Origin: Sphingobacteriales bacterium
GTDB taxonomy: Bacteria; Bacteroidota; Bacteroidia; Chitinophagales; JADIYW01
Assembly: GCA_947460245.1 (NCBI GenBank)
Contig: CANHGL010000018.1
Coordinates: 1-34,867, forward strand
DNA length: 34,867 nt
Direction: 5' to 3'
In this document: piece after piece, positions 1-34,867 of the stretch
How positions within the stretch are numbered: the stretch's first letter is position 1
How the letters are laid out: each line of letters starts with the position of its first letter
Notes under the pieces: model-generated
What the model was told of the DNA's origin: nothing
Seen by the model: the letters and a program-made list of their open reading frames with translations, nothing else
The model's database searches: none
Made by a program: the position numbers and the translations under genes

Positions 1-3000
1 CATGATGGCGCAGCTGGTGGAACAGGAGGTAGTGGAAGTACTACAGATACTGGAACTAAATCCGGTGGCGGTGGCGGAAGTGGAAATTCAAATATCTGGG
101 GAGCAAATGGAGGTAATGGAGGCGCTGGAGGTGGAACTTGTGGGAATAGCTGCGGAAATGCAGGCATTGCTGGTTCTACAGGGGGTAACTCCGGTGGAGC
201 GGGTGGTAATTCAGGTGCTGGGACAAGTACAGGATCCAATTGTAGCAGGGGGAACGGAACAAATGGTTCAGCAGGAACTGGTTATACAACTACCACTATA
301 AATACTCCAGGCGTGAATGGAGGAACCTCTACGCTGACTCCATCATATAGCACATATTTTACCCCAGCTGGTCAAGGTGCCCAAGGTGGACATGGCAGAG
401 CTGGCGGCGGCGGTGGCGGCGGCGGTGCAAGTAGGGGTGAGAGTAGAGGTACATTTTCTCTTTGTCTTGCAAATTCAGGTAATGGCGGTGGCGGTGGCGG
501 GCAAGGTGGCGGTGGCGGCCAAGGTGGCTTTGGTGGTAATGGCGGTGGCGGTACATTTGCTATTTATATAAACAATTCTAATACTGGTGCTGTAATTTCA
601 AATACTGCTTTAAGTGCAGGTACTGCAGGAGTTGGAGGTACGGGTGGAAATGGTGGAAACGGTGGAACCGGTGGTGCAGGTGGAAATGGCCCCAATACCA
701 ATTCTGGAGATAGAGGAGATGCAGGTGATGGCGGAGCAGGTGGTAATGGTGCAAAAGGTGGTACTGGTGAAAATGGTGCAAATGGGGTGTCTGCCCAAAT
801 GGCTAAAGATGGTGTTACCTCTTCCCCAAGCGTAGCAATACCTTCCACACCGGTGGTTGCAATTACCTATAATAACAACATGAAGATTTGTAAAAATTCA
901 GTAGTGCAAATCGATAAAATATCAGGAACAGGAAACTGGACTTTGCCGGGTAATTTCGATTATGTAAAATTTGAAAATTCAGCAATAGCTTCTGAATATA
1001 GCTCTACATCTACCAAGGCATTAATTTATGCTACGAACAACAATAATGCATATTATGATTTAGTTTCTGGTGCAGTTACTTATCCTAAATATTTGGAATT
1101 AACCGCTGATAGTCGTCCATTGCCTGTTGCTTCTATTACTGCAACAGATGGTTCTGCTTTACCGGATTCCAATAGAATTTGCGTTGGTGCTTCTGTTAAA
1201 GGATCAAATAGTGTTTCTTTTGGAACAAAAGTAGAATATAAATGGGAAGTGTATAGCGGCTTATCTGCGCCAACTAATGAAACTTCACCAGGAAGTACAG
1301 TGTTTACATCAAGTTTGGCAACTCCAATCTTTGGTGCATTCAATACACCCGGAAGGTATACCGTTCGTTATCAGGAACGAGATTTATGCTGTGGCTGGTC
1401 TATTCCTGTATTTAATGTTATAGTGGTAGAGCCTCAGCCGGGAACACCAACAGCAACAAAGAATCCGAATATAGATTCTTTATGTGAGGGAGAAACACTA
1501 ACGCTGAATTCGCCAACATCACCAAGTGGTGGTGCTGGTACATGTAATGTAGAATATAGATATACTACGAATAATGGTGGCGCATGGACAAGTTGGGGAA
1601 CGACCGTTCCAAGCTTTACTTCTGCTCCGGGTATTAACGTGATTGAAATGCGTACGAATTGCTCAGGTTTAGGTTGTGATATAAGTCCTAGCTCATCTTA
1701 TTCTTGGTATGTGGCGCAAGATCCACAAACTCCATCTGCAACAAAATCACCGGATGCGGGTGTGGTTTGTGCCGGAGCAAAACTTGAATTAATTGATTCA
1801 ACCATTGCACCTGGTGGTGTTGGTGGTTGTAACATCGAATATAGATATACCAAAGACAGTGGTGCAACCTGGTCTGCTTGGAGTATTATCGTTCCAAGAT
1901 TTGAAGCAATTATTGGTACGAGTATTATTGAGATGCGTACGAATTGTGGAGGCTTTGGTTGTGATATCAGCGGAACTGCTTCATTCTCTTGGCTGGTCGT
2001 AGCTGATCCGGTGATTTCTATTGCTTCAAATGAGGTGATATGTTATGGAAATACTGCTACAATAACCGCAACAGTTTCAGGAGGAACTGGAACCAATAGC
2101 ATTCAATGGCAGTCGAGTCTAACAGGCCTGGCGCCGTGGTCGAATGTTGGTACGGATAGTTCTTTTTATACTACTGATTCTTTAACACAAACTACCTATT
2201 ATAGAGCTTTATATTCTTCTACCGGAATCGAATGTGGTCTTGCTACTTCTAATACTATCGTAAAAGAGGTAAATGATATTACAGCCGGTATAGTTGCAGG
2301 AGATCAAAGTATATGTTCCGGTGGTGATCCTGTAGCCTTTACAGAAGTGGTAACACCTTCTGCCAGTTTAGGTACAGTTAGCTATCAGTGGCAGAGCTCA
2401 ACGGATTCTGGTTGTACTATAGGATTCACAGATATCGCAGGTGCTACATCCGCTACTTATGATGTGCCGGCAGGTTTAACAACAACAACTTATTTCAGAA
2501 GAATAGATACCTCTAACTATAGCGGATCGTCATGTACGTCCACTACTAATTGTATCACGGTTACAGTAGTTCCGGACCCTACCTGGGCAACGGATACGGT
2601 ATATCCAACTATAGTTTGTTTGGGTGGAAGTATTTCTTTCTCTGCTTCAGTCTCTGGCGGATTAGGAGGCTCGGTGAGCTGGATACGTGCTACTGCCCCT
2701 GGTGGGGTTGGTGATACGGTTACTTCGGCAGATACGCCTACTGCTTTGGGAACTTATTATTACAGACCAGTTTATATTCCGTCTGTATCAGGTTGTGATT
2801 TGGTAGATGGTTTGGAGACTTCAGTTTTAGTAGGGGATACCCTGGCTCCGGTATTCATTACGGTGGCAGATACTGTTGTAGAATGCTCGGTGACAGTAAT
2901 CGCGCCAACTACAACAGATAATTGTGCAGGTACTTTAACAGCTACTACAACAGATTCTACAACGTATACAACACAAGGTACACGAACGATTACCTGGGTA

Positions 3001-5502
3001 TTTGATGACAGCAGTGGTAATACAACTTCGGTTACGCAAAATGTAATTGTGAAAGATACCACAGCGCCGGTTAAACCGGTACTTGCTGATGTATATGGTG
3101 AGTGTTCTGCAACTGTAACAGCACCGACTACAACAGATAACTGTTCGGGTACATTAACAGGTACAACGTCAGATTCTACTTCCTATACTACACAAGGAAC
3201 ACGGGTAATAACATGGACTTTTGATGATGGAAACGGTAATACAACCACAGCCACACAAAATGTAATTGTAAAAGATACCACATTGCCGACGGTTATATCT
3301 GTTCCGGATGTGCTTGCTGCTTGTTCTACAACGGTGATTACTCCGGTAGCTTCAGATAACTGTATAGGTTTAGTAATAGGAACTACCACAAACCCTACAA
3401 CATATAATACACAAGGTACTTTTGTGATTACATGGACATTCAATGATGGACATGGAAATATCAAAACAGTTAATCAGAATGTAACGATAAAAGATAGTAT
3501 TGCACCGGTATTGCCTGTTATAACAGATACTATTGGCGGGTGCGTTGTAACGATAACACCTCCAGTTGCACAAGATAATTGTGCAGGACCGGTTACGGCT
3601 ACTACTACAGATTCAACTACCTATACGGTGGAGGGAACATATACTATTCACTGGACCTTTAATGATGGTAATGGCAATATTGCTATTGATTCACAAACTG
3701 TTACAGTAAGATATACGCAGCCTCCAACAGGGTTAGCTAACCAAGTGAGATGCGGTGATGGTAACGTTACCTTCACTGTAAACGATCCAGGTGTTGGATT
3801 AACTGTAGAGTGGTCTACAGATGGTATTACCAATAATGACGGTACAGGGATCAGTAAAACTAAATTTGTTGCGGTAGGTGCTCCTATTACAGAGTACGTT
3901 AGAATTGTAACTGATGCTACAGGTTGTAAGAGTGATTTCATTTCTGCAACGGGAACAGCCAATGTTATTCCTGTATTGCCAACTGGCTTGACTGATCAGG
4001 CAAGATGTGGGGATGGCAATGTTACTTTTACGGTAAATGATCCGGGTGCAGGCTATACAATTGAGTGGTCTACAAATGGCGTAACGAATAATGATGGTAC
4101 CGGATTGTCAAAAATTAAGCTGGTGAGAGTAGGTTCTCCGGTTACGGTATATGCCAGAGTGAGTGATAACATTACGGGATGTAAGAGTGCATTTGTTTCT
4201 GCAAGTGGAACTGCGAATGAGATTCCTGCTACACCTGTGGTGACCAATAATCAGACTACCTGTGGTGCGGGAGATATCACCTTTACGGTGGCTGATCCTG
4301 GACCGGGTTATACTGTAGAGTGGTCAACAGATGGAGTAACGAATAATGACGGAACCGGATTAACTAAGGTAAAGACCATTGTTGCTGGTGCTACGATTGT
4401 TGAGTATGTGCGGATTAGAAATAATATTACAGGATGTACAACTGCGTTTATTTTGGTAACAGGATCATCCAGGCTTACTCCTCCACTTCCAACGGGTTTA
4501 ACAGACCAGTTCAGGTGTGGTGATGGTAATGTAAGATTCTTTGTTTATGATACAGTTTCCAGATTCACTATGGAATGGTCTACAGATGGCATCACCAATA
4601 ATGATGGTACCGGTGCAACTGCCACTAAGTTTGTTGCTGTAGGTTCTCCTATAACAGAATATGTTCGGGTAAGAGATAATAGAACCGGATGTTACAGTGC
4701 ATTTATTTCAGCTATAGGTACAGCTGTAGGAACACCGGCATTCCCTACAGGACTTACAGATCAGGTGATTTGTAGAAGTGGAAGGGTAACCTTCTCTGTC
4801 AATGATCCTGGTCCTGGATTTACCGTGCAGTGGTCTACGGATGGCAGAAGAAATAATGACGGAACCGGATTGCAGAAAATCAAGTGGGTAAACGCTGGTT
4901 CACCAATTGTTGAGTATGTAAGAATAGTAAATGATAACGCAGGATGTAATAGTGAGTATGTTTCAGCAATCGGAAGAGTAAAAGATTCCCTTGCTCCTCA
5001 AACACCAGTGCTTGCAGATATTTCAGTAGAATGTTCTGCTGTCGTTCCGGTGCCTACAACATCAGATGATTGCATTGCTTCAGTGAGTGGAACTACAATA
5101 GATTCTACGGTTTACACCAGTGAAGGTGTTCGTGTTATTCATTGGAATTTCGATGATGGAAGCGGTAATACCACTTCTGCGAATCAAAATGTAAATGTTA
5201 TTAACTGTACGGTAACAGCTATTATTAACAGCACTACTTTTGAAGATGAATTGTATCAGAATATTCCAAATCCGTTCAATGGAACTTCTAAAATCACCTT
5301 TAAACTGAAAAGCAAAGGTGTTATCAAGTTAGCCTTGTATAACAGTACCGGTCAGGTTGTTAAGGTATTAGCAGAGGGTTACTATACTCCGGGTACATAC
5401 AATGTATTTTTAGATGCATCTGTTTATCCGGCTGGAAGTTATTATTATACCCTTCAGTTATCTTCTAAACTATTGGTTAAGAAGATGCAGATTATTAAGT
5501 AA
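1..5502 (+). CDS. Giant T9SS-secreted repetitive surface protein (5' end outside window)
   Basis: The frame is open from base 1, so the start lies left of the window; 1833 residues are visible. Domains in order: a Gly/Asn/Ala-rich low-complexity region (about residues 1-275); Ig/PKD-like modules, including two related copies with a conserved IEMRTNC motif (about 480-670); four tandem 73-residue HYR-like units (bases 2836-3711, each with a DNC and a W-x-F-D/N-D-G/S-x-GN motif); five tandem 85-residue units (3724-4983, most starting PTGL-x-x-Q and carrying NNDGTG); a fifth HYR-like unit (4984-5202); and a type A T9SS sorting domain (about 5240-5499, NIPNPFN, then a terminal KKMQIIK). Such proteins cross the outer membrane through the type IX system and are anchored or released at the surface. 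An adhesin or matrix role is inferred from architecture only. An intrinsic terminator follows. The C-terminal domain is clear; the function is not. Confidence 0.85.
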   Translation, partial: HDGAAGGTGGSGSTTDTGTKSGGGGGSGNSNIWGANGGNGGAGGGTCGNSCGNAGIAGSTGGNSGGAGGNSGAGTSTGSNCSRGNGTNGSAGTGYTTTTINTPGVNGGTSTLTPSYSTYFTPAGQGAQGGHGRAGGGGGGGGASRGESRGTFSLCLANSGNGGGGGGQGGGGGQGGFGGNGGGGTFAIYINNSNTGAVISNTALSAGTAGVGGTGGNGGNGGTGGAGGNGPNTNSGDRGDAGDGGAGGNGAKGGTGENGANGVSAQMAKDGVTSSPSVAIPSTPVVAITYNNNMKICKNSVVQIDKISGTGNWTLPGNFDYVKFENSAIASEYSSTSTKALIYATNNNNAYYDLVSGAVTYPKYLELTADSRPLPVASITATDGSALPDSNRICVGASVKGSNSVSFGTKVEYKWEVYSGLSAPTNETSPGSTVFTSSLATPIFGAFNTPGRYTVRYQERDLCCGWSIPVFNVIVVEPQPGTPTATKNPNIDSLCEGETLTLNSPTSPSGGAGTCNVEYRYTTNNGGAWTSWGTTVPSFTSAPGINVIEMRTNCSGLGCDISPSSSYSWYVAQDPQTPSATKSPDAGVVCAGAKLELIDSTIAPGGVGGCNIEYRYTKDSGATWSAWSIIVPRFEAIIGTSIIEMRTNCGGFGCDISGTASFSWLVVADPVISIASNEVICYGNTATITATVSGGTGTNSIQWQSSLTGLAPWSNVGTDSSFYTTDSLTQTTYYRALYSSTGIECGLATSNTIVKEVNDITAGIVAGDQSICSGGDPVAFTEVVTPSASLGTVSYQWQSSTDSGCTIGFTDIAGATSATYDVPAGLTTTTYFRRIDTSNYSGSSCTSTTNCITVTVVPDPTWATDTVYPTIVCLGGSISFSASVSGGLGGSVSWIRATAPGGVGDTVTSADTPTALGTYYYRPVYIPSVSGCDLVDGLETSVLVGDTLAPVFITVADTVVECSVTVIAPTTTDNCAGTLTATTTDSTTYTTQGTRTITWVFDDSSGNTTSVTQNVIVKDTTAPVKPVLADVYGECSATVTAPTTTDNCSGTLTGTTSDSTSYTTQGTRVITWTFDDGNGNTTTATQNVIVKDTTLPTVISVPDVLAACSTTVITPVASDNCIGLVIGTTTNPTTYNTQGTFVITWTFNDGHGNIKTVNQNVTIKDSIAPVLPVITDTIGGCVVTITPPVAQDNCAGPVTATTTDSTTYTVEGTYTIHWTFNDGNGNIAIDSQTVTVRYTQPPTGLANQVRCGDGNVTFTVNDPGVGLTVEWSTDGITNNDGTGISKTKFVAVGAPITEYVRIVTDATGCKSDFISATGTANVIPVLPTGLTDQARCGDGNVTFTVNDPGAGYTIEWSTNGVTNNDGTGLSKIKLVRVGSPVTVYARVSDNITGCKSAFVSASGTANEIPATPVVTNNQTTCGAGDITFTVADPGPGYTVEWSTDGVTNNDGTGLTKVKTIVAGATIVEYVRIRNNITGCTTAFILVTGSSRLTPPLPTGLTDQFRCGDGNVRFFVYDTVSRFTMEWSTDGITNNDGTGATATKFVAVGSPITEYVRVRDNRTGCYSAFISAIGTAVGTPAFPTGLTDQVICRSGRVTFSVNDPGPGFTVQWSTDGRRNNDGTGLQKIKWVNAGSPIVEYVRIVNDNAGCNSEYVSAIGRVKDSLAPQTPVLADISVECSAVVPVPTTSDDCIASVSGTTIDSTVYTSEGVRVIHWNFDDGSGNTTSANQNVNVINCTVTAIINSTTFEDELYQNIPNPFNGTSKITFKLKSKGVIKLALYNSTGQVVKVLAEGYYTPGTYNVFLDASVYPAGSYYYTLQLSSKLLVKKMQIIK

Positions 5503-5520
5503 GATTTAATTACTTATTGA

Positions 5521-5552
5521 AAAAAGCCCCTATGGAACCATAGGGGCTTTTT
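5521..5552 (+). terminator. Intrinsic terminator of the giant surface-protein gene
   Basis: A perfect 10-bp stem (GCCCCTATGG / CCATAGGGGC) with a minimal AA loop is flanked by an A-run on the left and a T-run on the right, about 17 bases after the stop codon. The A/T flanks make it potentially bidirectional, but only the plus-strand gene reads into it. Confidence 0.9.
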
Positions 5553-5915
5553 TATTTATCCTTCATCCACTTTTTAAAATGGCATTCTAGAGGTCAATTT
5601 TGCTTAAAAAATACTACAAAAGACAGCTGTCACAAAAATTAAGGTAAAATAATTATAAAATAATGATAATCAATACTTAATGTTTTTAATTATAGGTATA
5701 GCATGTCACATAAATACGTCTATAGTTTATATAAGTGACAGATAAAAACTACAAATTTGAATTACCCTATTGAAACATAATTTATGAAACCCGAAAATAC
5801 ACCCTTTGATTTGCTTACATCGTTGCCATCTGGCAACTCAATTGGTATAACTATTACTCTTCCTCCAACAGGCTTAAGTTTAGTATTCATTAAAAACAAT
5901 TTAAACCCATTTATT
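5553..5915. promoter_or_regulatory. Long AT-rich leader with TGTCAC sites and inverted repeats, no gene
   Basis: This 363-bp stretch before the small T9SS-tail gene has no convincing gene. TGTCAC occurs at 5628-5633 and 5704-5709, the latter facing an inverted GTGACA at 5735-5740 (26-bp spacer). A short perfect hairpin, GTTGCC-atct-GGCAAC, lies at 5822-5837. No exact TAnnTTTG -7 box was found; the closest is CAAATTTG near 5752. The reading frame of the next gene is open from an ATG at 5784, but its signal peptide starts at 5916, so this part is more likely untranslated leader. Confidence 0.35.
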
Positions 5916-14190: not shown

Positions 14191-14940
14191 ATGAAAAATC
14201 TACAATCTGTCTTTTTGTTGAGCATTTCCATAGTATTTTATACTATTTCTTATGCTCAGACAGCAGAAGATTTTTATAAGAGTGGAATAGATAAAGTAAA
14301 TGCTGGAAACAAAACAGAGGCTTTGTCCGATTTCAATTTCGCTATACTCAAAGATCCTAACCTTACCGATGCCTATGTGCATCGTGCAGAGTTATTATTG
14401 GAAGTAGGAGAATATACTGGTATGATCCGTGATTATACTAAAGTGATTGAGTTACAAGATGGAAATAAAACCGCTTTTTTGAAGCGAGGTAAAGCATATC
14501 TCATCATTGGAGATAATAAGAATGCCTTTAAAGATTTTAATACGACCATAGAGATAGATTCTATTTATGCTTTAGGCTATACCTACAGGGGGATTTCTCA
14601 TAATGTATCTAAGGATTATTTTTCTGCGCTCAAAGATTTGGATAGGGCAATTTTGTTGGATTCAACTCTGGCACTGGCTTATACTAGTAGAGGTAACACT
14701 AAATATTTTCTGTCTTACGAAGATAATGCCCCCAAGTCCTATGAACAGGAAGCTTTGTTGGATTATAATAAATCAATAGCCTTGGATCCTAATCTCGCAG
14801 AGGCTTATTATAACAGAGCAAATTTCTATTTCTATCTTCAGGATAATTTGCCTTTAGCTTGTTCGGATTGGTTAAAAGCTGCCGAATTAGGAAATATAGA
14901 TGCAAAAGTAATAGGCGAGAAAAATTGTTCTGTAAAATAA
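14191..14940 (+). CDS. Exported TPR-repeat protein
   Basis: 249 residues: a signal peptide (MKNLQSVFLLSISIVFYTISYAQ, cleaved after residue ~23), then about six tetratricopeptide-like units from residue 25 to the end. The characteristic spacing is seen in AEDFYKSGIDKVNAGNKTEALSDF, DAYVHRAELLLEVGEY, AFLKRGKAYLIIGDN, ALGYTYRGISHNVSKDY, ALAYTSRGNTK and LAEAYYNRANFYFYL. It ends with the ACSDWLKAAELGN cap common in Bacteroidota TPR proteins. TPR arrays bind other proteins; no catalytic domain is present. The next gene, 50 bp downstream, encodes a shorter relative with the same cap, so they are probably paralogues in one operon. The partner is unknown. Confidence 0.85.
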   Translation: MKNLQSVFLLSISIVFYTISYAQTAEDFYKSGIDKVNAGNKTEALSDFNFAILKDPNLTDAYVHRAELLLEVGEYTGMIRDYTKVIELQDGNKTAFLKRGKAYLIIGDNKNAFKDFNTTIEIDSIYALGYTYRGISHNVSKDYFSALKDLDRAILLDSTLALAYTSRGNTKYFLSYEDNAPKSYEQEALLDYNKSIALDPNLAEAYYNRANFYFYLQDNLPLACSDWLKAAELGNIDAKVIGEKNCSVK

Positions 14941-14990
14941 GTCTGTCTTAATGCTATTCTATTCTTTTATCTGTAACTTCCGTAGTAAAT

Positions 14991-15611
14991 ATGGGTACAA
15001 TTTCTTTTTTCAGGTTTTTAATACTATTCTTCTTTATTGTAAGCTCTTTTGACATTCAAGCGCAATCCGCTAAGGATTATTTTATCAGCGGAATAAAAAA
15101 AGATGCGTCGGGCAATCACGCAGATGCAATAATTGATTTTGATAAGTCCATTGCGCTAGACTCTTCCAGGTCAGGTACTTATATTAATAGAGGGGTTGCA
15201 AAGGCTGCCATGGGTAATCATGTTGCAGCAATCAGGGATTACAACAAAGCTATTCAACTCAACCCTAAGATTATGGATGTGTATGTGGATAGGGGCGTTG
15301 CCAGAGTGAAGTTAAAAGAGTTCAGATCAGCTGTTGCTGATTTTAATATAGCCATAGCGCTACAGCCAAAAAACACCTATGCCTATTATAATAGGGCGCT
15401 GGCCTATCAGAATCTAGGTGATTTTAAGGAGGCTATTAAGGATTACAGCATTTCTATAGCTCTTGATTCAAAAAATGCCCTAGCTTACCTTAATAGAGGG
15501 ATTTTACAACATGATATGGGTAGTAAAACCGCAGCTTGTTCTGATTGGAAGTCAGCTGCTCAGTTAAATTTGAAGAAAGCCAAGGATCTTTTAAAAAAAT
15601 ATTGCAAATAA
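14991..15611 (+). CDS. Exported TPR-repeat protein, paralogue of the upstream gene
   Basis: 206 residues. Signal peptide MGTISFFRFLILFFFIVSSF..QAQ (about 25 residues), then five TPR-like units, for example AKDYFISGIKKDASGNHADAI, GTYINRGVAKAAMGNHVAAI, DVYVDRGVARVKLKEFRSAV, YAYYNRALAYQNLGDFKEAI and LAYLNRGILQHDMGSK. The C-terminal ACSDWKSAAQL cap matches the upstream protein. It probably arose by tandem duplication and is likely co-transcribed with its neighbour. No terminator was seen after it; instead there is a very AT-rich stretch of repeated ATTAAT/ATTAATATT before the response-regulator promoter. Confidence 0.85.
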   Translation: MGTISFFRFLILFFFIVSSFDIQAQSAKDYFISGIKKDASGNHADAIIDFDKSIALDSSRSGTYINRGVAKAAMGNHVAAIRDYNKAIQLNPKIMDVYVDRGVARVKLKEFRSAVADFNIAIALQPKNTYAYYNRALAYQNLGDFKEAIKDYSISIALDSKNALAYLNRGILQHDMGSKTAACSDWKSAAQLNLKKAKDLLKKYCK

Positions 15612-15638
15612 TTAATATTAATTAATATTAATATTAAT

Positions 15639-15646
15639 TATATTTG
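15639..15646 (+). promoter_or_regulatory. -7 box for the response regulator/histidine kinase operon
   Basis: TATATTTG, an exact TAnnTTTG match, 31 bases before the ATG at 15678. It lies at the end of an AT-only repeat tract (15608-15641). No -33 TTG is at the usual spacing. Confidence 0.45.
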
Positions 15647-15677
15647 TTCTATTCCTTAAGGGTTAGCAGTTTTGTAT

Positions 15678-16157
15678 ATGACAATAAGTTGGAGTAATCT
15701 TTTAGGTATGCTAAATTTCCGTAAACGTCCATTTACAATTTTATTGGCAGATGACGATGAGGGAGACCGTTTGTTATTTCATGAAGCCGTAGAGGAAAGT
15801 AATGATGTAAAGCTCATAGCCGTAAAAAATGGCGATGAGCTCCTCAAAACACTAGATAAAATGATTCCTAACTTACCCCATGCGGTTTTCTTAGATTTGA
15901 ATATGCCTGTAAAAGATGGGCATGAGTGCCTGAGGACTATCAAAAATAATGAAGCTGTAAAAAGAGTTCCTGTAATTATTTATTCTACATCTAATAGTAG
16001 CGACCATTTAGAATCTACCTATGCGGATGGTGCGAATCTGTTTGTTGTAAAACCGGATAGCTATAGCGGATTAAAAACTATCATTGAAAAGGTAGCATTA
16101 CTTCCATGGAAAGAATATATACCTCAACCCTCCAAAGATAAATTCTTATTGGAATAA
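15678..16157 (+). CDS. Single-domain response regulator
   Basis: 159 residues from the ATG at 15678. An internal ATG at 15708 would start closer to the domain (MLNFRKRPFTILLADDDE) and may be the true start. Receiver-domain residues are all present: acidic pocket Asp25-Asp26-Asp27, phospho-acceptor Asp73 in FLDLNMPVKDG, Ser103/Thr104 in IIYSTS, and Lys125 in VVKPDSY. There is no output domain, so it works by protein contact, as do CheY-like regulators and the Rcp family paired with bacteriophytochromes. The multi-PAS kinase starts nine bases after its stop, making a cognate pair very likely. Confidence 0.92.
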   Translation: MTISWSNLLGMLNFRKRPFTILLADDDEGDRLLFHEAVEESNDVKLIAVKNGDELLKTLDKMIPNLPHAVFLDLNMPVKDGHECLRTIKNNEAVKRVPVIIYSTSNSSDHLESTYADGANLFVVKPDSYSGLKTIIEKVALLPWKEYIPQPSKDKFLLE

Positions 16158-16166
16158 AAATTAGAA

Positions 16167-18962
16167 ATGGAAATTAATAGCAGTTTCGAGTCTTCTGAAA
16201 AGAAGTATGAAAATTATAATTTTAAGTATTTCCCTGATTATGCTAAGTATATATCAAATGAAAAATTTGAATCTTTTGCGCATAATTTTTTACAGCTTAC
16301 GGAGAGGACAGAGATTCCACTGCGGTCTTTCATAGGACAATCTATTGTAGATGAATTCCTCAAGTCTTTTTCTCAGGAGTCTAAAAAAATTATTAATTAT
16401 ATAGAAGAAAATAGGGTAGGAGAATTCTTTGACTACATTTCAGAAAAATGTCAGCAAAATCCCTTACTCATTTCTCAGGTTAATAATATCTCTAATAAGG
16501 ATATTTTATTAATAGGTTTTTTGTCTAAAAATTTATTCTATAGTTTCTTAAAGGAATATACTTCTGATAATGATATTATTTTAAATATTATTGAAGAGAT
16601 AGATTTTTTTACTTTTAAGCTACAGGAGTTGTGCAATAAAATAATTATTGACTTAGAACAGCGAAGAAGGTATACTACAATGCCTACTGATGTTCTGAAA
16701 GATAATTTGCATGGTATCATTTATATATTCAGTCTAAAGGAAAGAAAGGAGCTATATGCTACATCTCAAAGAGAAGATCTATTGGGATATAAAGATATAG
16801 ATGTTGAAAGAATGGGGAGCAGTTTTTTACAGGAAATAGTGCATCCGGACGACTACGATAAATTAGATACTGCATTAAGTAGATTTGAAACCTTATCAGA
16901 TAATGAAATTCTTATCAATGAATATCGTTTAAAACATAAAGAAGGATATTATATTCCGATGAGGTCGCATGAGAGTATTCTCAAGAGGGGTATAGATGGA
17001 AAACCAACAGAAATTATAGGTATTTCTATTGATGTCAGAAAAGAAAATCAGTTAGAAGATGAATTATTATTTTTAAAGAACCAATTGCTGGAATCACAGG
17101 AAGTAGCCATGGTAGGCAGTTTTGATTGGAATTTGATAACTGGAAATTCAACGAATAGTCCTCAATTAATGAAAATATTGGGACTTAAAGATGAAATCCT
17201 GGATCCTGACAACTTCTACAAGTACGTGCATGCTTCAGATATAGATAAGTTGAAAAATGCTTTGAACAGTGCAATACATAATGGTACTAATTATGAATGT
17301 GAATATAGGTTTTGTAATAATGACTATAAAGTTCTTTGGTCGAGAGGTAAATTAGTTTATAAGGATGGTGAGCCTGTTAGGTTAATTGGAACGGTAACAG
17401 ATGTCACGCATCGGTATGGTCATAATTCACATTTAGAACGTATTGAAGAAATGTATGATCAGCTGCAATTGCTTGCTAAAATAGGCACATGGAGTTGGTA
17501 TGTTTCAGATAATATAATTATTTGCAGCGATGAAATGTATCGTATTATTGGTCTATTACCACAATCTGAATTAATGACTTTTGATAGATTCTTAGAATTT
17601 ATTCATCCGGAAGACAGGGAGAAAAGAATTAAGACTTTAGAGGCTGTAAAATATAATGGTAAGGAGATGGATTCTGTTATTAGGGTTATCGATAATCATG
17701 GGGATTTGAAATTTCTTAAAATTACGGATAGTGCCATTCTTGATGAGCACCAAAAAACTATTAAGCTATCTGGTGTCGCTCAGGATATTACATTGCAATA
17801 TTTATTAGATGAGAAGTTAAAACAAAGCGAAGAAGAATTGCGTATATTATTAAATAATGCTCCGGATGCAGTAGTAGCTATAGATGATGATAGTAAGATT
17901 ACGTTTTGGAATCCTAAAGCAGAAAAGCTTTTTGGATGGTCTGAGGAAGAAGCTTTGGGTCTCACTTTAATGGAAACGATAATGCCACCTGTGCATAAGG
18001 ATGCCCATATAAAAGGGATGCATAGAATGCATATTACCGGAGAACATATAATGTTGGGTAAGAATTTGAAAACTACAGCAATTAAAAAGTCTGGTGTTGA
18101 ATTCGATATTGCCCTTTCTATTTCCATTCATGAAAATGGAAATAAAGGATTTATTGCTTTTATTCGGGATATTTCAGAAGAAAAACAGGCTGGAGCTGAA
18201 CTAATTAATAGTAAAGAAGAGCTTATTCAAAAAAACAAAGAGCTAGAAGCGAGAAACGAGCAGCTCTCTTCTTTTAGCTATGTAGCTAGTCATGATATGC
18301 AGGAACCTCTTCGCAAAATAAGAATTTATACGAGTAGGCTTATAGAGAAGAATTACGATACACTATCTGATGATACGAAAGACTTTGTTTATCGTATTAT
18401 GAACTCAGCAGAACACATGCAGCTGCTGATTGATGATTTACTGGCTTTCTCCCATACGATGGAGTCTGCTCTGGTTTTTGAAAAAATAAATCTCAGCACA
18501 CTTTTATTTGATGTCAAACATGCTCTAAAATACTCCCTGGAAGAAAAAAATATTAAACTGGAGATAGGGATAATGCCAACCCTTATGATTATACCTTTCC
18601 AGTTTAGTCAGTTGCTTCAGAATATGTTGAGCAATGCTATAAAATATAGCAATACTTCAGTGCAATCTTTTATAAAAATTAGTGCCACTGTGGTAAACGG
18701 GAGTGAGATTAGTCATGCATCTGCTAATGCGAATATGCGATATCACGAAATCGTTATTCAGGATAATGGAATAGGATTTGATCAGCAATATGCAGAACGC
18801 ATATTTATCCTGTTTCAGCGCTTACATGGTAAGGGTGTTTTTAGAGGTACTGGAATCGGACTGAGTATATGTAAGAAAGTAGCAGAGAATCATAAGGGCT
18901 TCATCGTTGCCAAAGGCGAGTTGGGCGTTGGAGCAACTTTTCTGATTTATATACCTGTATAA
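16167..18962 (+). CDS. Cytoplasmic multi-PAS sensor histidine kinase
   Basis: 931 residues, no signal peptide or membrane helix. Residues 1-170 form an all-helical N-terminal domain I cannot name confidently; it may be a globin-like or RsbR-N-like sensor. Four PAS/PAC units follow: about 178-292, 310-415, 432-545 and 553-672, the last a typical PAS (LLNNAPDAVVAIDDDSKITFWNPKAEKLFGW is split by its usual helix). Then comes a coiled coil (672-700) and a HisKA domain with phospho-acceptor His709 in SHDMQEPLRKI. The HATPase has an N box (NMLSNAIKYS, 819-828), G1 DNGIGF (866-871) and G2 GTGIGLSI (894-901). It should phosphorylate the regulator encoded just upstream. The HisKA type resembles that of phytochrome-like kinases. 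The signals sensed are unknown. Confidence 0.93.
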   Translation: MEINSSFESSEKKYENYNFKYFPDYAKYISNEKFESFAHNFLQLTERTEIPLRSFIGQSIVDEFLKSFSQESKKIINYIEENRVGEFFDYISEKCQQNPLLISQVNNISNKDILLIGFLSKNLFYSFLKEYTSDNDIILNIIEEIDFFTFKLQELCNKIIIDLEQRRRYTTMPTDVLKDNLHGIIYIFSLKERKELYATSQREDLLGYKDIDVERMGSSFLQEIVHPDDYDKLDTALSRFETLSDNEILINEYRLKHKEGYYIPMRSHESILKRGIDGKPTEIIGISIDVRKENQLEDELLFLKNQLLESQEVAMVGSFDWNLITGNSTNSPQLMKILGLKDEILDPDNFYKYVHASDIDKLKNALNSAIHNGTNYECEYRFCNNDYKVLWSRGKLVYKDGEPVRLIGTVTDVTHRYGHNSHLERIEEMYDQLQLLAKIGTWSWYVSDNIIICSDEMYRIIGLLPQSELMTFDRFLEFIHPEDREKRIKTLEAVKYNGKEMDSVIRVIDNHGDLKFLKITDSAILDEHQKTIKLSGVAQDITLQYLLDEKLKQSEEELRILLNNAPDAVVAIDDDSKITFWNPKAEKLFGWSEEEALGLTLMETIMPPVHKDAHIKGMHRMHITGEHIMLGKNLKTTAIKKSGVEFDIALSISIHENGNKGFIAFIRDISEEKQAGAELINSKEELIQKNKELEARNEQLSSFSYVASHDMQEPLRKIRIYTSRLIEKNYDTLSDDTKDFVYRIMNSAEHMQLLIDDLLAFSHTMESALVFEKINLSTLLFDVKHALKYSLEEKNIKLEIGIMPTLMIIPFQFSQLLQNMLSNAIKYSNTSVQSFIKISATVVNGSEISHASANANMRYHEIVIQDNGIGFDQQYAERIFILFQRLHGKGVFRGTGIGLSICKKVAENHKGFIVAKGELGVGATFLIYIPV

Positions 18963-19325
18963 TTATTTTAGATTAATGAGTGTAATTTCTTCTATTTTAT
19001 ACCTTCCGGTTTGTACGCAAAAATGCATTTCATCAATATAGGGCAATAAATTTTTTATGTAAAGGTTATTTAAGGAGAATTGCTTAACAGGTAATTTTCC
19101 ATTACTATATTCTCCCTTTCCTAAATATTCTTTATCAATTGCATAAACGACAATGTCTATCATACTCCCATAGGAGACACTTAGGGCTATCGCCTCGTAT
19201 CGATTATTTTGATAACCCGATATGTGATTGGCACAGAACTCATCAACCGGACTCGCTTCTGCAAATTTTATACTTCCCGGCGATATCCATTCATTGAAGT
19301 TTACAGGTGCTTCATGCATTTTCAT
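18963..19325 (-). CDS. Hypothetical protein, 120 residues
   Basis: I do not recognise this family. The protein is soluble and mixed alpha/beta, with no signal peptide. It begins MKMHEAPVNFNEWISPGSIKF and has a central GSMIDIVVYAIDKEYLGKGEY and a C-terminal MHFCVQTGRYKIEEITLINLK. It converges on the histidine kinase gene: the two stop codons touch with no base between and no terminator, so the transcripts probably overlap. Codon use and base composition are like the neighbours. Coding status is supported by a clean frame, a start next to AT-rich DNA, and no competing frame, but no motif confirms it. Confidence 0.6.
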   Translation of the reverse strand: MKMHEAPVNFNEWISPGSIKFAEASPVDEFCANHISGYQNNRYEAIALSVSYGSMIDIVVYAIDKEYLGKGEYSNGKLPVKQFSLNNLYIKNLLPYIDEMHFCVQTGRYKIEEITLINLK

Positions 19326-19679
19326 AATAACATACTTGTATTACAAATCTGCTTTTTTATTTGTTGATTATCTTAATTCTGCTTCCTATAATGTTTCAAC
19401 TTCGCCATCTCGAGCTGCCATTTTATAAGGCAGCAGTTGTATTATGGAAATTTTATAATAAATGTAATCAATCTTATAACACAAAGGGGTAACAGATTTA
19501 ACACCTTTGTAATAATTGAAATTATATGATACAGTTATTCTTGAATCGCATCTATTTTCTAAAGCTATACTTTCAGTGTTTGTTCACGCTTTTGATATTT
19601 AGTGTAATATATGGTTTTAGGAAGTGGATGTAATTCGGTTTTAGCAGGGGTGTTTTTTATTAAATCTTAAACTATTTTT
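19326..19679. promoter_or_regulatory. Divergent intergenic region with two inverted repeats
   Basis: 354 bp between a minus-strand and a plus-strand gene, with no gene of its own. GCTGCC/GGCAGC with a 9-base loop lies at 19414-19434. ACAAAGG (19481-19487) is mirrored by CCTTTGT (19504-19510), and the right arm overlaps CACCTTTG, one base off a TAnnTTTG -7 box. The second repeat could be an operator for the stress-gene cluster that starts at 19680. The rest is AT-rich and unremarkable. Confidence 0.4.
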
Positions 19680-32910: not shown

Positions 32911-32945
32911 GCGTATTTAAACTATATTTTCTCAGAGTAATAAAT

Positions 32946-32977
32946 AAAAAAAGGCGGAAGTGATTCACTTCCGCCTT
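32946..32977 (-). terminator. Terminator of the rhodopsin gene
   Basis: Arms AAGGCGGAAGTGA / TCACTTCCGCCTT are almost contiguous. On the minus strand the stem is followed by a T7 run, so it ends the rhodopsin transcript. On the plus strand there is no T-run, but it may also stall transcripts from the delta' gene. Confidence 0.85.
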
Positions 32978-33009
32978 GCTATTTATTAGCTTTTTAATTT
33001 GACTTTTTA

Positions 33010-33726
33010 TTAGTCTTCGCTTCTGCTTAGAGAATAGATAACTAAACCAAATCCAATTTTATTGATTGCATCTGCAATATTATAAACGATATCCATAGCC
33101 TTAGATGCAGCAGCAGGATCAGCAACTAACTGAATGCCTGCAAATCCACCAGGAGTACCTAATACATATCCTAAAGGATAGATTGCCCAGCCTACTAACA
33201 CAAACCAAGCCAATATTCTTGTAGCCTTAGCTACTTGAGGACCTGCATTTTGAGCTAATTTAGCTACTTCACCGAACCAGATTAGGTATGCGATGTAGAA
33301 ATAAGCAACACCTGAGATTGCTCCCCAGATTGCGCTACTTCCAACGTAAATAGTTTCTCCAAGATAACCGGTTACTAACATTACTAATGAAGCTAAAATC
33401 AACTTGTACAATAAGCCAATTTTTGCACCAGCTTTCTTAGTAATGAGGTAGAATTCTACACACATTAAAGGTACAGTAAGAATCCAGTCAACATATCTAA
33501 AGAATGTTGGAGATTCACCTGTTTCTAGATTGTAACCTCTCATGTAGTAGTAGTGTACTGCTGCGATGAAGGTGATTAATCCAGATACTAAAACAGATGT
33601 TCTCCATTTTTGAGGTGTATTGTTTAACTCAAAGAAGAAGAACACAGATGCGGCCATCATAGCCATTGTTCCGATAAAAAACGTGAACGCCACGTAATTA
33701 TCACTTGCAATTTTTAAATGTTCCAT
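33010..33726 (-). CDS. Proteorhodopsin-type light-driven proton pump with Gly at the antenna-fenestration site
   Basis: 238 residues, seven transmembrane helices. Helix B carries His58 in VHYYYMRGYNLETG, the PR-type counterion partner. Helix C reads RYVDWILTVPLMCVEF: Asp80 (proton acceptor), Thr84 and Glu91 (proton donor) give the DTE motif of outward proton pumps. The tuning residue is Met88, as in green-absorbing flavobacterial forms. Lys223 in DAINKIGFG binds retinal, with Asp219 four residues before. Aligning helix E to bacteriorhodopsin (WWAIS vs WGAIS) puts Gly135 at the Trp138 site. In xanthorhodopsin a Gly there opens a window for a carotenoid antenna. It follows the Blh gene on the same strand and ends in a strong terminator. 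It pumps protons in light to supplement respiration. Confidence 0.95.
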   Translation of the reverse strand: MEHLKIASDNYVAFTFFIGTMAMMAASVFFFFELNNTPQKWRTSVLVSGLITFIAAVHYYYMRGYNLETGESPTFFRYVDWILTVPLMCVEFYLITKKAGAKIGLLYKLILASLVMLVTGYLGETIYVGSSAIWGAISGVAYFYIAYLIWFGEVAKLAQNAGPQVAKATRILAWFVLVGWAIYPLGYVLGTPGGFAGIQLVADPAAASKAMDIVYNIADAINKIGFGLVIYSLSRSED

Positions 33727-33837: not shown

Positions 33838-34866
33838 TTAATTATTATGATTTTTTTCAAAGTGTTGATTTTTAGCATGTTTTCTGTAGAAAACATGCAT
33901 GGAAAGCACGTGTGGGAAGCTGATACAGGAGATAAATACGAAAAATAAGGCCATTTTTTGTTGATTGAAGGCGTCTAACCATCCTCTTTCCATGCAAATC
34001 AGGGTTATTGTAAAGAGTAAAAATGCTCCAAAAGTAAAGGGAAGTGCCTTTTTAAATAAAGTTAGGTTATCCGTTTTGAACCCTTTTTTGAGATGCGACC
34101 AGCCGTTTAAGCTGTGCTGACCAATAAAGTATAAGCCAAATGCGGTAAGAAGGGGCAGTTCAATGCCTATGGCGAGCATTAAAGCACTCAGTACCATTGC
34201 AGGGCGCCGCTCTGCTATTCCCCATACCAATGCTGATAAGGAGAGGAGTATGGCCAGTAGCTTACCCTGCGCGCTATTTAAGGGTAGTGTATGTGTACCC
34301 ATATTACTGATAAGCTCATTAGTAGCGGCTATATGTCCATGTAGAATAATTCCAAAGAGTAAAATCCCCCAAGCCCAATTTTTATAAGGACGTTTTTGCT
34401 CGGGTTGCCATTGCTGCATATCGCATTGTCCGAAATGCCAGATGGAGTACAAAAGAAAAAAGAGTAAAGCTGCACTCGGTAGTGCCAGCCAGACAAAGAG
34501 ATAAGCTACGCCCATACCGAGGTAACGCAGTATAAAACGGATATCGCCCCGCCATTCCAGATGGCCACTTTCCAAAAGATGGTCTATCGCACCATGAGGT
34601 ATTCCTATGCTAAACAGTCCAAGTGTAAAGAGTATTCCTTGAGTCCAGTTGAATATATTTTCAGAGCTATTCTGCACTACACAAAGTATGGTGGCTAACA
34701 GCAATAAGGCAACGGGTGCCAGCAGTTGCTGATACCTCACTTTCGTATCGTACCACCAGGTGCGAATAAACGGCAGTATTGGTAAGCTGAATAATATGCT
34801 TAAATCCTGATATAAGGATGTCTTTTCATCCAGGAAGCGCAGCACATCAATGGTTTTATTTTTCTG
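33838..34866 (-). CDS. blh: Brp/Blh beta-carotene 15,15'-dioxygenase, possibly fused to a lycopene cyclase tail (5' end outside window)
   Basis: At least 343 codons: the frame is open to the right edge, and the only in-window start is a GTG at 34845, so the true start is probably outside. The Blh part begins near residue 35 of the GTG-numbered protein: several membrane helices and the iron-binding motifs GIPHGAIDH (81-89), WHFGQCD, YFIGQHSLNGWSHL and FPHVLSMHVFYR. It splits beta-carotene into two retinals for the rhodopsin encoded next. The residues before it (IDVLRFLDEKTSLYQDLSIL.., then LPFIRTWW) look like the C-terminal end of bacterial lycopene beta-cyclases (..FLDE-TS...DL-I---P--PF---). 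I therefore infer a CrtY-Blh fusion. A perfect 10-bp hairpin lies inside the 3' coding end. Confidence 0.88.
   Translation of the reverse strand, partial: QKNKTIDVLRFLDEKTSLYQDLSILFSLPILPFIRTWWYDTKVRYQQLLAPVALLLLATILCVVQNSSENIFNWTQGILFTLGLFSIGIPHGAIDHLLESGHLEWRGDIRFILRYLGMGVAYLFVWLALPSAALLFFLLYSIWHFGQCDMQQWQPEQKRPYKNWAWGILLFGIILHGHIAATNELISNMGTHTLPLNSAQGKLLAILLSLSALVWGIAERRPAMVLSALMLAIGIELPLLTAFGLYFIGQHSLNGWSHLKKGFKTDNLTLFKKALPFTFGAFLLFTITLICMERGWLDAFNQQKMALFFVFISCISFPHVLSMHVFYRKHAKNQHFEKNHNN
33875..33898 (-). promoter_or_regulatory. Perfect hairpin inside the 3' end of blh
   Basis: Arms GCATGTTTTC and GAAAACATGC with a 4-base loop, wholly within the coding sequence for MHVFYRKHA and about 37 bases before the stop. 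No T-run follows on the minus strand, so it is not a standard terminator. It could mark an mRNA processing or stability site between blh and the rhodopsin gene. Confidence 0.5.
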
Positions 34867-34867
34867 A

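Follow-up and report, generated by a model that had tools for sequence, protein, structure and literature searches.

A candidate CrtY-Blh fusion gene beside proteorhodopsin in a Sphingobacteriales bacterium and its complete relatives in Bacteroidota

What does a retinal-forming gene encode when its reading frame runs off the end of a contig with the tail of another enzyme ahead of it? The question is raised by a stretch of 34,867 nucleotides (hereafter the window), which is the entire contig C18 in the draft genome (2.21 Mb, 85 contigs) of a Sphingobacteriales bacterium. On its minus strand, a frame of 342 codons and a stop is open throughout, from the contig edge at 34866 to a TAA codon at 33838-33840. 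A sequence-only reading had proposed that this frame lacks a good start and joins the C-terminus of lycopene beta-cyclase (CrtY) to the dioxygenase Blh, directly upstream of a rhodopsin gene. Start-like codons ahead of the Blh core are limited to three GTGs (codons 8, 43 and 64) and one TTG (codon 55), and ATG first appears at codon 118. At the opposite contig edge lies another open-ended frame (1-5502, plus strand), encoding a very long, repeat-rich protein of surface type, which begins with a glycine-rich stretch and has a sorting-like domain at its C-terminus.

The first 37 residues of the minus-strand frame (34756..34866) represent the end of the cyclase half, as judged from a CrtY profile and from identity to the 97 fusion proteins described below. 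The residues 'QKNK..DVLRFLDEKTSLYQDLSILFSLPILPF' at the frame's first codons align with the final residues of CrtY proteins that stand alone. Searching the proteins of 60 related genomes returned, in addition to Blhs, the ends of two such CrtYs, with 53% identity over 36 residues (G056, E 6.8e-5) and 46% identity (G031, E 3.1e-4). A hidden Markov model of CrtY, derived from 15 frames that lack Blh, gave window residues 1-45 a score of 31.3 bits and matched residues 1-38 to its positions 359-396 (of 401); the best score of shuffled residues was 7.0 (1210 scored among 2000 shuffles), and stand-alone Blh proteins scored about 0 bits or below. Among these 15 frames, L089 and L184 are probably the CrtY halves of frame-shifted fusions, which leaves the test unchanged because both are likewise CrtY sequence. 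In L089, CrtY and Blh occupy two overlapping frames (3529-4767 and 4545-5666), possibly a fusion split by a frameshift that reflects sequencing error or decay. Only the last ~38 CrtY residues of the cyclase family PF05834 are present in the window, the rest lying beyond the contig, and since the homology starts at the contig's first codon the gene clearly continues outwards. The earlier assignment of the first ~35 residues to a cyclase C-terminus thus holds. The span proposed for the feature, 34700-34867, does contain the tail, but its limits have to be redrawn: the tail ends at 34756, and Blh begins only near residue 80 (~34629).

Residues 80-327 (33885..34629, minus strand) form the Blh half, a beta-carotene 15,15'-dioxygenase by its family matches: PF15461 covers residues 83-326 with E 5.7e-36 and TIGR03753 scores above its cut-off. 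His91, Asp95, His144, His178, His251 and His319 are all kept, and the five histidines, invariant or nearly so across the 97 fusions, are presumably iron ligands. The intervening junction (residues 38-79; 34630..34755, minus strand) carries the first membrane helix of the Blh half at residues 46-64, predicted to be continuous with the CrtY end. Within the window, one frame joins the C-terminal end of CrtY to a complete Blh core beside a proteorhodopsin, and the window's part of the gene (33838..34866, minus strand; 5′ end missing) has both domains in frame with CrtY first, as in the fusions of about 650-720 aa collected here.

The nature of the missing part is best judged from complete relatives. 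A search for proteins combining Lycopene_cycl and Brp/Blh domains, recommended by the sequence-only reading, was successful. In a genome of the same order (G348), a 687-aa protein contains PF05834 (E 2.9e-38; 1.7e-46 in a further complete relative) followed by PF15461 (E 1.2e-36); it is 48% identical to the window frame in an alignment unbroken at the junction, and a near-identical rhodopsin adjoins it. After removal of duplicate sequences, the collection comprised 97 distinct CrtY-Blh proteins, each complete or nearly so; in 95, the alignment with the window frame starts no later than residue 8 and spans tail, linker and Blh. Identity across the whole window frame is 48-51% in the complete fusions L117, L057, L046 and L118, the best match being L117 with 51% over 334 residues. 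CrtY occupies approximately residues 1-395 and Blh approximately 400-690 in all fetched fusions; a GxG flavin motif and TxCFW are invariant in nearly all 97, and the invariant cyclase residues are kept.

Such proteins are not confined to a few genomes. When Blh searches were read together with the open frame around each match, frames of 650-720 aa emerged in three genomes of the same order, a class-wide draw yielded fusions in 32 of 72 Blh-bearing genomes, and three genomes from another class of the phylum carry them as well. A scan of GTDB species genomes with the fusion alignment returned 80 loci, mostly from MAGs of Chitinophagaceae, Flavobacteriales, Crocinitomicaceae, Cryomorphaceae and Schleiferiaceae; an earlier scan of these genomes with the window protein as query gave no match. 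No fusion relative was found among viral contigs and phages, plasmids gave only separate CrtY-like matches, all ending at residue 375-379 and spanning less than 80% of the query, and a PDB sequence search returned no relative of Blh or CrtY. NCBIfam cyclase models reach complete fusions only below their cut-offs, so that NCBIfam rules name these proteins by Blh alone and the fusion is easily missed. By these sequence comparisons, full-length homologous fusions are common in (aquatic) Bacteroidota. The relatives argue strongly that roughly the first 340 residues of the window protein would lie beyond the contig edge, and we infer that the gene of the source organism has an intact cyclase half too. 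The missing N-terminal part of CrtY was not found elsewhere in the source assembly. A separate crtY elsewhere in the genome, considered as the origin of the tail, was rejected, none being found in the assembly. With tail and Blh sharing one frame and 97 complete or nearly complete relatives at hand, the original proposal of a CrtY-Blh fusion is supported. None of the refuting outcomes that accompanied this proposal was encountered.

The location at the edge of a contig in a draft assembly could raise the suspicion that the CrtY and Blh parts form an assembly or binning chimera. That explanation has a negligible chance of being correct here and is already refuted for the fusion family. Across 97 distinct sequences, produced by many studies and assemblers, the junction has an identical register; two of them (L164, AH-273-B07; L166, AG-919-D03) look single-cell derived, their names being presumably of the single-cell-genome type, and the linker is nearly constant at 47-58 residues.

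The same edge hides the N-terminus, and the gene might be a decayed or truncated fusion in the source organism, with Blh working from an internal GTG or TTG and the cyclase tail left as a relic. Losses of the CrtY half have apparently happened before. In the Blh tree, one supported group unites the fused Blhs with the window, itself placed among the fused sequences, and with five stand-alone Blhs; three stand-alone Blhs of the same order (L054, L111 and L112) are nested among fused ones, a tree position best taken to mean that the cyclase half was lost. Two of these three genomes retain a separate CrtY, and the fusion is therefore not essential. A rhodopsin directly adjoins each of the three stand-alone Blhs. 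Decay in the source organism is nevertheless improbable, given how the tail has been kept. Median identity to the 97 fusions is 43% in the tail and 37% in Blh, as opposed to 13% in the 42-residue stretch between them, and every fusion-invariant residue within the stretch covered by the window, tail included, is also found in the window. No ATG precedes codon 118, and in the two loss cases read (L054 and L112) the CrtY tail is wholly absent. An intact fusion remains the preferred reading.

As for its origin, a branch of the CrtY tree has 13 true stand-alone CrtYs all to one side; its SH-aLRT of 83-90 is not decisive, and the topology allows a single fusion event. L092, L093 and L103 have crtY and blh in the same order but as two frames overlapping by 7-29 bases, plausibly a step before fusion. 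Blh was not found in the 12 family-level relatives searched, and the locus may thus have been acquired by transfer. A different frame in the same phylum (G962, L195:3643-6519) encodes 958 aa with Blh at 657-929 and ~650 N-terminal residues without a Pfam match; it is perhaps another type of Blh fusion, or an unrelated frame joined by chance.

How the two halves might be arranged in space was modelled on a complete relative of 679 aa (L182), using AlphaFold2 and a 40-row alignment that included the window (pLDDT 92.5, pTM 0.85). The N-terminal half adopts an alpha/beta fold, for which Foldseek returned geranylgeranyl reductases and other flavoproteins; for the Blh half there was none among the matches listed. 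A single helix (371-408, corresponding to approximately window residues 30-67) spans the boundary, beginning at the cyclase end and continuing as the first membrane helix of Blh. The model agrees with the fusion being one membrane protein.

As the sequence-only reading had it, a rhodopsin gene lies directly downstream of the Blh frame, on the same strand and after 111 bases. It encodes a proteorhodopsin of 238 aa (33010..33726, minus strand; PF01036 E 7e-41; best PDB matches proteorhodopsins) with a DTE motif, read from the sequence as the proton pump type. A terminator-like hairpin with a T-run follows (32934..32980, minus strand; fold of 32921-33012, -26.1 kcal/mol), between the rhodopsin gene and a convergent DNA polymerase III delta'-like gene. 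Among 104 fusion loci, 7 duplicates counted, a rhodopsin was near 65 within the fetched flanks: directly upstream on the same strand in 49, downstream as in the window in 7 and on the opposite strand in 9, while the remaining 39 had none within the fetched stretch. In G348 (L046:2876-8113), the fusion and rhodopsin adjoin three photolyase/cryptochrome-like genes, possibly a light-related island.

The best overall explanation, and a highly probable one, is that the window gene is a CrtY-Blh fusion that makes retinal from lycopene for the adjoining proteorhodopsin. Lycopene would be supplied by the carotenoid pathway of the cell, for which crtI, crtB and the gene of a CrtYcd cyclase lie next to one another on contig C1. 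The CrtY half would close both lycopene rings to give beta-carotene, which would pass within the membrane to the Blh half and be cleaved there into two retinals for the neighbouring proteorhodopsin. Because a separate CrtYcd is already present in the general carotenoid cluster, the fused cyclase could act as a private branch, reserving lycopene for retinal against competing carotenoids. On C1 (L051:5601-8646, 14792-19425) the order is crtI-crtB-crtYcd, then nearby a carotenoid biosynthesis protein of PF04240, a second desaturase-like protein, a Rieske oxygenase and another flavin oxidoreductase. The cluster looks like one for synthesis of a monocyclic or hydroxylated carotenoid.

A second lycopene cyclase occurs in 32 of 35 fusion genomes (CrtYcd in 27, a second CrtY in 5 more), the three without one being an estimated 77%, 82% and 92% complete. 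Together with the source genome, this distribution is the reason for reading the fusion as a private lycopene-to-retinal enzyme. As proof of a private branch, the association is weakened by a control: CrtYcd is present in 26 of 47 genomes with a stand-alone Blh, and a second cyclase is thus not specific to fusions, CrtYcd being simply common in the phylum. The architecture is what the sequences show; enzyme activity, channelling and insulation are predictions. The broader proposal, that CrtY-Blh constitutes a widespread and insulated lycopene-to-retinal branch with direct transfer of beta-carotene between rigidly joined active sites, is tentative, with a chance somewhat below even. Fusion without channelling is a real possibility, although we would not quite call it probable: the joint protein might provide only equal amounts and co-location, or its cyclase half might also feed general beta-carotene. 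Equal expression is already favoured by the overlapping crtY and blh of the unfused loci. The presence of another cyclase in nearly all fusion genomes speaks for a private branch instead, and the continuous helix for a fixed geometry, both short of proof.

Rhodopsin function hinges on the supply of retinal. If the private-branch reading is true, the fusion shows how aquatic Bacteroidota separate chromophore synthesis from pigment synthesis. The protein also opens substrate channelling in the carotenoid metabolism of membranes to direct testing and provides a natural component for the production of retinal and vitamin A.

A search of the open-access literature, with subscription papers outside its scope, found no bacterial CrtY-Blh fusion, and such a protein seems undescribed. 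The nearest precedent is a protist CrtI-CrtB-CrtYcd-Blh protein (PMC10016063), which likewise unites a lycopene cyclase and a C-terminal Blh in a single polypeptide. It differs in being eukaryotic, in having four domains and in using the unrelated membrane-type CrtYc/d in place of the flavoprotein CrtY, and its Blh groups with haloarchaeal Blhs. Separate crtY and blh genes beside proteorhodopsin, known from marine flavobacteria and verrucomicrobial clusters (PMC10284914), share the activities, locus type and purpose, but distribute over two polypeptides what CrtY-Blh holds in one. A verrucomicrobial CrtIB fusion, reported as new in 2023 (PMC10284914), also joins two carotenoid enzymes within a rhodopsin gene cluster, whereas the steps that it combines both precede cyclisation. 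Fungal CrtYB and thraustochytrid CrtIBY are, like CrtY-Blh, natural multi-enzyme carotenoid proteins; they differ from it in employing a CrtYc/d-type cyclase and in being without Blh.
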